Source: Lachnospiraceae bacterium 28-4
GTDB taxonomy: Bacteria > Bacillota > Clostridia > Lachnospirales > Lachnospiraceae
Direction of reading: 5' to 3'
Assembly: GCA_000403275.2 (NCBI GenBank)
Contig: KE159601.1
Location: forward strand, 124,001 to 188,000
DNA length: 64,000 bases
Within the stretch, counting starts at the first letter, position 1, and every line of letters starts with the position of its first letter. A program made the translations under genes and the position numbers. Below are positions 12,227 to 49,668 of the stretch, one piece after another. Under the pieces are notes generated by a model, which saw only the letters and a list, made by a program, of their open reading frames with translations, ran no database searches and had not been told where the DNA came from.

Positions 12227-12607
12227 GGGGAACGGAATGTCCATATCCTAAATTTCCGCAAATGGCATTGGACTCCGGAGACCGGGAAAGGCAAGGGCAG
12301 GAACGCGCCCGGCAGAGGGGCAGGTTTTTTGCTGGAGCTTCCAATCAGATTTCACTAATGAAATGGGTATACTCTTTGGAACCGATTGGGTCGGAAGCGA
12401 AAGGGCATCCTTGCCCTTCGCTTCCTGAAATTGCCGTCCGTGGCAATTTCACCCTTGGTTTTTGGCCATTTCATAAGTGAAATTGCTGATTGTACGCAAC
12501 AGCAAAAAACCTGCCCCTCTGCCGGGCGCGTTCCTGCCCTTGCCTTTCCCGGTCTCCGATGCCCAATGCCGTCTGCGGAAATTTGGGATATGGACATTCC
12601 GTTCCCC
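12227..12607. repeat. long inverted repeat element A with conserved inner core
   Basis: The gap of 440 bases between bsh and the ccdA fusion is filled by a 381-bp palindromic element. The arms (12227-12366 and 12465-12607) pair almost throughout, with a few mismatches. The inner part of the arms (AATCAGATTTCACTAATG on the left, ATTTCATAAGTGAAATTG on the right) is a core shared with element B at 29621-29899. It includes an 8-by-8 internal loop, GAGCTTCC against GTACGCAA. Between the arms are two hairpins, 12392-12426 (GGAAGCG arm) and 12427-12451 (GAAATTGCC arm). No ORF of note is present. Confidence 0.85.
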
Positions 12608-28624: not shown

Positions 28625-29500
28625 TTATCCGTTCGGCAGCCTGTTCCCTTTCCGTCCGGGAGACAGCGCTTCTATCAGCTCTTCATAGGTCAGAATGCCG
28701 TCAGGCAGCGGCAGCCCGCTCTTTTTCAATTCATACGCCAGCAATGTCACCTGCGGCACATCCAGCCGAAGTTCTTTCAGCCTTTCCACCTGCGTAAATA
28801 TTTCCCTCGGACTCCCCTGCATGGCAACATGTCCTTTATCCATCACAATCGCTTTGTCCGCATGAATGATCTCTTCCATATAATGAGTAATCAATATCAC
28901 GGTAATCCCTTCCACCTGGTTCAAAGCGCGCACCGCCCGTATTACTTCCTTTCTTCCGTTCGGATCCAGCATCGCCGTAGGCTCATCCAGAATAATGCAC
29001 TTCGGATGCATGGCGATGACGCCCGCGATGGACACTCTTTGTTTCTGTCCTCCTGAAAGCTTATTCGGCGAATGTTTCCGGTACTGATACATGCCCACGG
29101 CCTTCAGGCTTTCCTCCACCCTCTCCCAGATCTCCTTCGTAGGCACACCCATATTCTCGGGGCCGAATCCTACATCTTCTTCCACTACCTGACCGATAAT
29201 CTGATTGTCCGGGTTCTGAAAAACCATTCCGGCAGTCTGGCGGATTTCCCAAAGATACTTTTCCTCGGACGTATCTTTTCCATCCACCCATACCGTCCCC
29301 TCCGTCGGATAAAGAATCGCGTTCAAATGCTTTGCCAGCGTAGACTTGCCGGAGCCATTATGCCCAAGTACCGCCACGAAATCGCCCTGTTTCACATCCA
29401 GATCCACCTCGTCCACCGCCCGGGTGATCCCCTCCACATTGCCTTCCTCATCCCGCCTGATATATTCAAAAATCAATTTCTTCGCTTCAACAATTCCCAT
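28625..29500 (-). CDS. ecfA1: energy-coupling factor transporter ATPase EcfA1
   Basis: A 291-residue ABC ATPase: Walker [10 protein letters not shown], signature LSGGQKQR, Walker B CIILDEPT, and the H-loop region ITHYMEEI. It is the first gene of the minus-strand unit ecfA1-ecfA2-ecfT-truA. In many related genomes this unit follows rplQ directly; here it is separated from rplQ by an insertion of 2.5 kb and has its own promoter at 29547-29575. Confidence 0.94.
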
Positions 29501-29546: not shown

Positions 29547-29575
29547 ATTGTACTAGAAAAAGAAACGGATTACAA
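29547..29575 (-). promoter_or_regulatory. promoter of the ecf-truA operon
   Basis: TTGTAA (29570-29575) and TACAAT (29547-29552), 17 bases apart on the minus strand. Confidence 0.6.
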
Positions 29576-29620
29576 GTTTTGGGGGGAATTTTTATGTGAA
29601 AAATGTGGTAATGAAAAAAG

Positions 29621-29899
29621 GCAGGACGGTGGCGGTGGCGCTGGGAGAAGGGGGTGGCGGGGGCGGCATTTTTTTGCTGGAGCTTCCAATCAGATTTCAC
29701 TAATGAAATGGTTATACGGAATCCAACCTGACGAGCCGGGAGCAACGGCATCCATGCCTACGCTCCCTAAAACCGCCATTCCTGGCGGTTTTTCTCTGGT
29801 TATTGGCCATTTCATAAGTGAAATAGCTGATTGTACGCAACAGCAAAAAAATGCCGCCCCCGCCACCCCCTTCTCCCAGCGCCACCGCCACCGTCCTGC
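29621..29899. repeat. long inverted repeat element B with conserved inner core
   Basis: A 279-bp palindromic element in the 704-base gap between ecfA1 and the M15 peptidase gene. Outer arms 29621-29668 and 29852-29899 (GCAGGACGGTGGCGGTGGCG and onward) pair nearly perfectly but are unrelated to the arms of element A. The inner core is the same as in A: TTTTTTGCTGGAGCTTCC, then AATCAGATTTCACTAATG on the left, and ATTTCATAAGTGAAATAG with ACGCAACAGCAAAAAA on the right. The two inner hairpins differ in sequence from those of A but pair equally well (GGGAGC / GCTCCC and AAAACCGCC / GGCGGTTTT). Confidence 0.85.
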
Positions 29900-30026
29900 T
29901 TCCTTCCGCCACTGCGTTTGCCAACATTAATCCCCTCAGTTACGATTACTACTTTAAATGAAATATATAGCAATTTCCCTATCCTTATGTTAGAATTAGA
30001 TCATTGCTGGGGACGACAGTTTTGCG

Positions 30027-30153
30027 GGAATATTCTGGCAATATCTGTCAGGAAACATCTTTTTTGCGCCATTCCAGCAAGACCGTTTTACCGGGCTTGC
30101 TGGAATGCCCGGCGCAGTTAGATGTTTCCTGGCAGATATTGCCAGAATATTCC
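30027..30153. repeat. long inverted repeat D
   Basis: Arms 30027-30060 and 30120-30153 (34 bp, GGAATATTCTGGCAATATCT and onward) pair with a single non-Watson-Crick position, which is a U-G wobble if the plus strand is RNA. Inside is a second stem, ATTCCAGCAAG / CTTGCTGGAAT, flanked by GCGCC / GGCGC. It lies about 50 bases upstream of the start codon of the M15 peptidase gene, so it would form in its leader or overlap its promoter. Confidence 0.85.
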
Positions 30154-30204
30154 TCCAACACCCCATCCCCCCAATCACCTAATACAAACAAAGGACCAAC
30201 AATC

Positions 30205-31212
30205 ATGAATAAAAACAAATTATTAAAACCCCTCCTCCTCATCGCCGTCATCATCCTGTTCTGTTCCGTATTGGCGCGGTTGTTTTCGGAATCGGAGACG
30301 TTGCTGGAATATGCGGAGAAAAATCCTGAAATTGCATATCGAAAGGAGGAACCTGACGAGGCCGCCGGGAATAAGATAGAAAATGATACCGATCATCAAA
30401 TGGGCTATGCGGACAGCGATATTGTCGATCAGGAACCTTTGGATGACCATTCTTCTTCCTCTGCGGTAGAAGCGGACAAAGAAAATAGAGCGGATGGGGA
30501 AGATGTCCAGGAACCGGAAAAGGAGGAACTTCTTATGAACGGGAATCCGAAAAGAATCGTATATCAGGAAGGTTTTTATTATGAACCTTTATCCGATGAA
30601 ATGATAAGCAGAATTACAGGGATTTCCTATCCCATTGTAGAAGACGAAAAGGATACTCTTGTTATAGAGGCGGTAAATATCGCTCCCTCTCAGGAGGATA
30701 TTCAAATATCCTATGAGGATCTTTGCTATATGAGTGTTCTTCATTATAATTTTCATGGAGTGGAACGCACCGGCGAACTAATATGTAATAAAGCGATTGC
30801 CCAGGATTTGATTGAAATTTTTTATGAATTATATCAAAACGAATACCAGATCGAGCAGATCCGGCTTATCGATGAATATGGAGGCGATGACACGCTTTCC
30901 ATGCAGGATAATAATACTTCCTGTTTCAATTACCGGGTGGTTGACGGCACATCCAACCTTTCCAAGCACGCCCTTGGCCTTGCCATCGACATTAATCCCT
31001 TTTTTAATCCTTATGTCGTATACCGGAATGATGGAAGCACTTATATTTCGCCGCAGGGAAGTGAAGCGTATACGGATCGCGGCAAAGATTTCGCTTATAA
31101 AATTGATGAAAATGATTTATGCTACAGACTGTTCAAAGAGCATGGCTTCATTTGGGGAGGCAACTGGAATTCCTGCAAAGACTACCAGCATTTCCAAAAA
31201 GTCCCCAATTAA
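30205..31212 (+). CDS. membrane-anchored M15-family D-alanyl-D-alanine carboxypeptidase (VanY-like)
   Basis: A 335-residue protein. The start at 30205 (AAAGGA nine bases upstream) gives an N-terminal membrane anchor (PLLLIAVIILFCSVLARLF), then an acidic linker to about residue 115. The C-terminal domain has the M15 zinc and catalytic residues: SKHALGLAIDINPFF (His and Asp) and the final DYQHFQKV (His), with HGFIWGGNW before it. It would trim terminal D-Ala from peptidoglycan stems outside the membrane. It belongs to the patch inserted between ecfA1 and rplQ and is followed by a terminator. Confidence 0.88.
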   Translation: MNKNKLLKPLLLIAVIILFCSVLARLFSESETLLEYAEKNPEIAYRKEEPDEAAGNKIENDTDHQMGYADSDIVDQEPLDDHSSSSAVEADKENRADGEDVQEPEKEELLMNGNPKRIVYQEGFYYEPLSDEMISRITGISYPIVEDEKDTLVIEAVNIAPSQEDIQISYEDLCYMSVLHYNFHGVERTGELICNKAIAQDLIEIFYELYQNEYQIEQIRLIDEYGGDDTLSMQDNNTSCFNYRVVDGTSNLSKHALGLAIDINPFFNPYVVYRNDGSTYISPQGSEAYTDRGKDFAYKIDENDLCYRLFKEHGFIWGGNWNSCKDYQHFQKVPN

Positions 31213-49331: not shown

Positions 49332-49668
49332 AAAAAAAGTCGCCTCCTTTTCGCACTTTTAATCCTTAAGTACGACAAGCGGTGACTGTACACTCGTCCG
49401 TGTGTGTCCTGATAAATTCCATAACATGACTTTTATCCGTATTAGAACTCGCAGTTCCCACACACCGTTACACTAACTCGAAGTAACATTATGTTACTTG
49501 GTAACATTATGTCTGTACAGTGACTTGTCGTCAGTTTCCTTCAGCCGTTTACCGGCCTTCTTGACATTCGCTCCACGGAAAAACCTGCCTCCTGGGCAGC
49601 AACCTCACGCTTCACAGCTATCATGCCACAGCATTAGGTATTATACCTGATATTTTTTGGAAATGCAA
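49332..49668 (-). promoter_or_regulatory. promoter and structured leader of the S10 operon
   Basis: TTGCAT (49663-49668) and TATAAT (49640-49645), 17 bases apart on the minus strand, predict a 5' UTR of about 300 bases. The UTR can close with a long-range stem: CGACAAG and ACTGTACA (49373-49391) against TGTACAGT and CTTGTCG (49514-49529). Inside are GTGTGTG / CACACAC and a hairpin AGTAACAT / ATGTTACT. The rest of the gap up to 49802 is AT-rich and shows no gene. Confidence 0.7.

Follow-up and report, generated by a model that had tools for sequence, protein, structure and literature searches.

TwoAYGGAY (RF01731) is catalogued in Rfam as an RNA motif, with no function assigned there. The passages on TwoAYGGAY in the literature examined treat it as a candidate RNA or as an example, and mention neither terminal repeats nor target duplications nor mobility, all of which we find here. 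Bacterial MITEs such as QMITE2 and MITEAba12 are likewise small and carry terminal inverted repeats and direct repeats, those of QMITE2 being 7-9 bp long according to a passage of PMC10969869. In contrast to these MITEs, most of the unit described here is one long hairpin, with arms specific to each copy and two conserved GGA-loop hairpins. CsrA recognizes a type of site in which GGA is placed in a short hairpin loop. Our element has this feature in common with the CsrA/RsmE-binding hairpins of the CsrB/RsmZ type, as passages of PMC4333381 describe them, whereas here there are two sites per unit, they lie inside what is almost certainly a transposon, and the distribution of csrA, in a set of genomes that includes several drafts, does not appear to track that of the element. 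Like REP/BIME palindromes, its copies are palindromes scattered between genes, and some of them form adjacent inverted pairs. REP elements are not known to make a target duplication and have a RAYT (Y1-type) transposase as partner; here, in contrast, we find terminal repeats and 9-bp duplications, and the assignment to REP was rejected on the 9-bp target-site duplication (TSD). Terminal repeats with 9-bp duplications would presumably point to a DDE-type transposase, not to RAYT. A paper on Borrelia plasmids (PMC2674063) reportedly joins RNA motifs and MITEs. Among the titles and abstract beginnings listed for MITEs with Lachnospiraceae, CsrA, Rfam or 9-bp duplications, none names this element, and in the text portions available we found no paper describing TwoAYGGAY as the core of a transposon.

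The window, that is the whole stretch of 64,000 nucleotides of Lachnospiraceae bacterium 28-4 that was analyzed, holds two elements, A and B, which both match the full RF01731 model (1-168) above its cut-off (Table 1). The two cores have the near-identical parts AATCAGATTTCACTAATG, GAGCTTCC and ATTTCATAAGTGAAAT in common, and their inner stems differ (GGAAGCG/CGCTTCC against GGGAGC/GCTCCC; GAAATTGCC/GGCAATTTC against AAAACCGCC/GGCGGTTTT), each pairing with its own partner. The sequence-only reading had described exactly this, and its observation of a common core with compensatory changes is confirmed. Only one of the two hairpin loops of B is a true AYGGAY, the other being a variant. On both strands the B core (29694-29824) is much more stably folded than shuffled sequence: the folding energy is -58.7 kcal/mol for the minus strand (z -6.35) and -55.3 kcal/mol for the plus strand (z -7.84); since both strands fold about equally, folding does not decide between them. 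The interval 29621-29899, to which the element had been confined, is the span of the 73-nt outer arms of B, and the inserted unit is larger.

Table 1. Coordinates of elements A and B in the window.
Feature	Position	Strand	Basis or remark
RF01731 core of element A	12335-12499	minus	cmscan 87.1 bits
Outer arm of element A	12227-12334		108 nt, 6 mismatches with partner arm (L047)
Partner outer arm of element A	12500-12607		L047
Whole inserted copy B of the very probable transposon	29577-29943 (367 bp)		degenerate outer termini; ends inferred by alignment with G009, where the orthologous site (L082) is empty
Candidate left TSD of B, GATTACAAG	29568-29576		7/9 match with 29944-29952; spotted by eye
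Candidate right TSD of B, GATTACTAC	29944-29952		alignment with the G009 empty site
Left outer arm of B, G-rich, copy-specific	29621-29693		inverted repeat, 73 nt, 95% complementary
Right outer arm of B, C-rich, complement of left arm	29827-29899		inverted repeat
RF01731 TwoAYGGAY core of B	29680-29840	minus	cmscan 83.8 bits, gathering cut-off 43
Inner stem of B, left side, containing the short palindrome ATTTCACTAATGAAAT	29694-29711		inverted repeat; helix 1 of core alignment
Inner stem of B, right side	29807-29824		inverted repeat; helix 1 of core alignment
Inner hairpin H1 of B	29769-29792	minus	loop AGGAAT on minus strand, variant of AYGGAY
Inner hairpin H2/H3 of B	29738-29767	minus	loop ATGGAT on minus strand

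Element B is a long hairpin in a gap bordered on the left by an ABC-transporter ATPase gene (28625-29500, minus strand, PF00005) and on the right by a gene whose product has a D-alanyl-D-alanine carboxypeptidase domain (30205-31212, plus strand, PF13539). In the related genome G009, which is 87% identical across the genes neighboring B, the site is empty: the joined flanks of B align there at 86% over 129 bases, and a single GATTACAAG stands where the insert is flanked by GATTACAAG and GATTACTAC in the window. The bounds of the insert, about 29577-29943, are inferred from this comparison, the termini of B itself being decayed, and its candidate TSD was found by eye, outside the statistical test described below. 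No convincing TSD was seen by eye for element A.

The genome to which the window belongs (4.28 Mb, 7 contigs) contains 62 RF01731 matches, 22 of them at 107-121 bits and 40 at 59-96 bits. This number is a lower bound, as a search with the terminus yielded further full copies (L163-L167 and L179). Out of 16 genomes of the genus, 12 (this one included) carry 3-58 copies, and none was found in the other four. In an order-wide sample of 246 genomes searched with stricter filters, 20 had a match with an E value of at most 0.001; 16 of these exceeded the cut-off, and 14 of the 20 carriers belong to the same family. The exact core pattern of one subfamily was found in 37 stretches of genome contigs, every one of which is titled Lachnospiraceae bacterium; two exact core patterns gave no match in viral contigs, a search that differing relatives would escape. 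Draft assemblies probably undercount these palindromes, because matches sit within some bases of contig ends (in G009, C29:9-176, C30:9-176 and C81:4-143, and likewise at other contig ends). Neighboring copies in opposite orientation, with starts about 330-430 nt apart, occur in G000, the genome of the window, at C1:1195130/1195564, C3:653045/653430, C2:131313/131680, C1:1031191/1031554 and C3:333495/333827. They look as if new copies had inserted beside old ones.

A unit with both ends recognizable runs CACGGAAATCAATTTT...AAAATTGATTTCCGTG, with 9-bp TSDs on its flanks. The terminal repeats of the family are about 16 nt long, CACGGAAATCAATTTT, and many arms end in this word; a genome-wide search for CGGAAATCAATTTT, allowing at most one mismatch, gives 84 occurrences, and the reversed control word gives 3. 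We measured flank duplication in 37 loci with both ends recognizable (at most 4 mismatches). Of these, 30 belong to the 62 copies found with the model and 7 were found by their terminus, the other 32 model-found copies lacking a recognizable terminus pair. The mean 9-bp flank match was 0.535 against 0.268 for shuffled partners (sd 0.024; z 11, n=37), and when lengths 6-12 were compared the runner-up to k=9 was k=10 with z 3.9. Individual matches reached at least 7/9 in 11 of the 37 copies, the other 26 fully terminated copies falling short. Among the matches of at least 7 that were listed, strain 526-35 has duplications of 9/9 at L185 and L207, and S4_Bin4 has one of 8/9 at L210. Among 26 loci from other genera, none yielded a CACGG-type terminus accompanied by a 9-bp duplication; at L267 and L272, the duplications seen (8/9 and 7/8, respectively) lie at unrelated ends. 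Copies from another genus (L267, L270-L274 and L285) lie in imperfect inverted arms that contain internal loops and GTGTC-like words and in several cases exceed 150 nt, an arm architecture unlike that of the CACGG elements.

Given its arms, its termini, the 9-bp TSDs and the empty site, we thus take TwoAYGGAY in this genome to be the central part of a small DNA transposon that is apparently non-autonomous. Together with the high copy number and the patchy occurrence, these observations indicate that element B is almost certainly a copy of a MITE-like transposon family of Lachnospiraceae. The core may be dispensable for transposition, because termini-only derivatives carry near-complete TSDs (L176, with 46 bp between its CGG ends, 8/9; L238, 52 bp, 8/9; L259, 86 bp, 7/9); these three could instead be post-insertion deletions.

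A transposase acting in trans would move the element. No transposase or autonomous partner was found. A relaxed search of the fetched DNA, starting from 170 distinct left termini and looking for another terminus at a distance of 500-3500 nt, returned only L239, a 515-bp unit found from both strands which, by reading, carries an insertion in its core. No longer pair was obvious by eye in the terminus pattern of four genomes of the genus, nor among the terminus matches listed (of 117) in strain 526-35. ISLre2 makes 9-bp duplications and was for this reason tested as a partner. It is present in 4 of the 16 genomes of the genus and was rejected as mobilizer: in the copies compared, from G000 and G011, the ends are unrelated to those of the TwoAYGGAY element (GATAGCGTAA... 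and ...TTTACCCTAGC in the G000 pair L222/L226, and similar ones in G011), the remaining G000 copies having been scanned just for terminus-like words.

Inverted arms of at least 40 nt enclose the core in 59 of the 62 copies (exceptions L007, L010 and L071), and the 5' arm tends to be G-rich. Within a copy the arms are about 96% complementary, with 211 mismatches in 5449 aligned pairs from alignments selected for best complementarity, and 12 of the 62 copies have no mismatch at all. Between copies, mean arm identity is 0.66-0.69 in every core-identity bin (1891 pairs; best single pair 0.88). As the baseline for unrelated flanks is about 0.60, the arms keep at most a weak likeness, partly compositional. 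Counted on the AYGGAY strand, the arm mismatches comprise 98 G·U and 80 A·C, which is no significant G·U excess (p 0.20). In the 91 arm pairs that are at least 80% identical, a similarity that is itself partly compositional, 796 differences are compatible with pairing in both copies and 149 are not. Mean identities of arms and core are 0.776 and 0.910 in strain 526-35 (13 copies), 0.658 and 0.836 in S10_Bin3 (12 copies), and 0.675 and 0.874 in S4_Bin4 (6 copies); the higher arm likeness in 526-35 is as expected if arms diverge with time after a burst.

Copies sharing a site between G000 and G009 allow the same comparison at fixed positions. We obtained 11 such rows and ranked them by core against 47 of the 53 G009 matches. 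Seven of the 11 rank 10th or worse by core and may therefore be independent insertions, so that the reading of all 11 as orthologous was dropped; only L062/L136, L065/L142 and L067/L137 (the last with a left flank match of just 48 nt) rank first or second. In these three pairs the flanks are 0.86-0.93 identical and the arms 0.58-0.74 (0.60-0.67 for shuffled arms), and the arms within each copy are 0.94-1.00 complementary. The core is inverted in L065/L142, the sole inversion among the three, L062/L136 for instance not being inverted. The inversion scores of two further rows were not counted, in L053/L160 because the neighboring copies L053 and L070 both match L160, and in L013/L152 because the two belong to different subfamilies.

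Template switching between inverted repeats is reported to homogenize the arms and to invert the spacer (PMC8604942), and compensatory changes in RNA stems have been proposed to arise from it (PMC8794818). The long arms of our element would stay complementary in this way, one arm being copied from the other by template switching during replication, and the same process could also invert the core. We regard such a correction of the arms as probable.

These arms bear directly on the argument of the sequence-only reading, which took base changes that preserve pairing as a sign that structure is under selection. Preserved pairing is by itself no proof of RNA selection, because the drifting arms, barely alike between copies, keep pairing too, and do so almost as faithfully as the core. 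The structured element that had been proposed stands and agrees with the Rfam entry; the step from there to a selected, functional RNA does not hold in the form in which it was made. Covariation in a larger alignment, which had been suggested as a check, does exceed chance. In A1, an alignment of 48 distinct cores of one subfamily from the genome of the window, 99.1% of cells pair and 16 of 34 pairs are changed on both sides; both-side changes occupy 108 cells, where shuffling gives 29.1 on average and none of 500 shuffles gives as many as 108, and one-side changes occupy 13. Homologues with broken inner hairpins, named beforehand as evidence against the claim, do exist: L162 has a perfect 102-nt arm on each side and has lost its core hairpins (core judged by reading), and the half-copies L171, L172 and L175 stop in the core (by eye). 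The matched base changes of the core may thus be partly due to copying of a DNA palindrome.

Better evidence for a role at the RNA level than kept pairing comes from the retained GGA and from a small G·U excess in the inner stems. Among 99 distinct cores of the low-scoring subfamily, GGA is kept in 98 at hairpin 1 and in 94 in the region of hairpin 2, where GGA anywhere in an 18-column stretch was counted; adjacent loop positions vary, and loop 1 fits A-N-GGA in 91 of the 99 (count of listed hexamers). Because these cores were found through their inner palindromes, the conservation of the latter is inflated. Twelve distinct cores fetched by terminus, and also required to keep both inner palindromes, have two GGA-loop hairpins in eight cases, one in two and none in two. 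By a strict count on the oriented strand (at least 4 perfect pairs, loops of 5-6), 22 of the 62 copies have two such hairpins, 37 have a single one and 3 lack them. In other genomes, 45 of 46 loci have one or two GGA-loop hairpins per copy, the 46 having been chosen by the Rfam model, which favors such loops. Mismatches in inner stems H1 and H2 are 14 G·U against 3 A·C (22 against 6 with H3, whose columns are partly misaligned), so that template switching alone does not explain the core. In a simple model the loops lie outside the reach of arm switching, though inversion of the spacer could touch them. On balance, these sequence patterns favor RNA-level selection on the loops. The core would then persist since its two GGA-loop hairpins act in a transcript, most simply by binding a CsrA-type protein, although CsrA as the binder of the predicted hairpins is a tentative suggestion.

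The best overall explanation, to which we give a probability of roughly 0.8, is a MITE-like family carrying two GGA-loop hairpins, whose arms are probably corrected by template switching and whose core may have a role at the RNA level. The same loops could be read differently, as those of a dedicated regulatory RNA, a sponge or target of CsrA/RsmA type under ordinary RNA selection, with mobility incidental. CsrA sites in TwoAYGGAY have been suggested in print (in a passage of PMC4333381), and the kept GGA, the loop hairpins in other genomes, the G·U excess in H1 and H2 and the csrA gene encoded in the genome of the window would all suit such an RNA. Against this, the H1 loop of B itself is not an AYGGAY, and across the genus csrA and the element do not seem to turn up together consistently. 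We found csrA in 12 of the 16 genomes, not the same set as the 12 carriers, several of the genomes being drafts. G005, a draft 97% complete, has 10 copies and no csrA was found in it; loops are nevertheless intact in all 6 copies fetched of its 10, five with two such hairpins and one with one. G003 and G012, less complete than G005, also have copies and no csrA found, and G006, G007 and G015 have csrA and no copies found. Judged on these sequence data, a dedicated regulatory RNA appears possible but doubtful.

The element could conversely be a purely selfish DNA palindrome, whose hairpins and loops a transposase or host factor reads as single-stranded DNA. Terminal inverted repeats with TSDs, and strands that fold about equally, accord with this; the termini-only derivatives L176, L238 and L259, with their near-complete TSDs, speak against it, and we consider it unlikely, though worth keeping in view. 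A cis-regulatory leader of neighboring genes, the type under which Rfam files the motif (Cis-reg), is very improbable. Although 5' ends make up 78 of the 122 gene ends that face a copy (a crude ORF count over 61 of the 62 copies), the tandem sites split evenly for the AYGGAY strand, and the orthologous gap in G009 does without B. By crude ORFs, the 62 copies are 14 co-directional, 14 antisense, 8 convergent, 25 divergent and 1 unclear, and cis-regulation is disfavored by this want of a fixed orientation upstream of genes. Cruciform DNA with a chromosomal function of its own, for example as a fixed protein docking site, would fit the very long near-perfect palindromes and is still the least credible idea, as the copies are mobile, were not found in 4 of the 16 genomes of the genus and include several half-copies.

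Returning to the MITE-like family, one might go further and suppose that the transposon scatters paired CsrA-type hairpins across the genomes of gut Lachnospiraceae as mobile decoys or new regulatory sites while template switching rewrites both arms in step, the covariation thus coming largely from mutation. We offer this extension as speculative. Were it true, the family would be a natural demonstration that strong covariation, the kind by which RNA families are defined, can arise largely from mutation and not from selection. The transposon reading itself re-files a candidate RNA family of 2010, which in this lineage at least becomes part of a transposable element, namely its core. The drifting arms and constrained hairpins, side by side in one molecule, offer a matched internal test of how much covariation says about RNA function. 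If the GGA-loop hairpins bind CsrA, a mobile element would be spreading binding sites of a global regulator.

Several further features were seen around B, at its site in another genome and elsewhere in the window. In G015, a genome without RF01731 matches, the gap corresponding to that of B (L085) holds a lone ATTTCATTAGTGAAAT, exactly the inner stem word, which could be what is left of an old copy, or else a binding site. A permissive Rfam scan near B gave MIR7127, RNAI and others, all below their cut-offs and taken as chance. The gap that holds B in the window also contains a second long palindrome (30019-30161), with 42-nt arms at 90% and an inner hairpin CATTCCAGCAAG...CTTGCTGGAATG. It has no Rfam match above cut-off, and parts of it recur in the genome (11 match rows, two of which are the palindrome itself); from its sequence it looks like a different dispersed element. 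Finally, 49525-49623 is an S10-Clostridia ribosomal protein leader (72.7 bits), a known cis-regulatory RNA.
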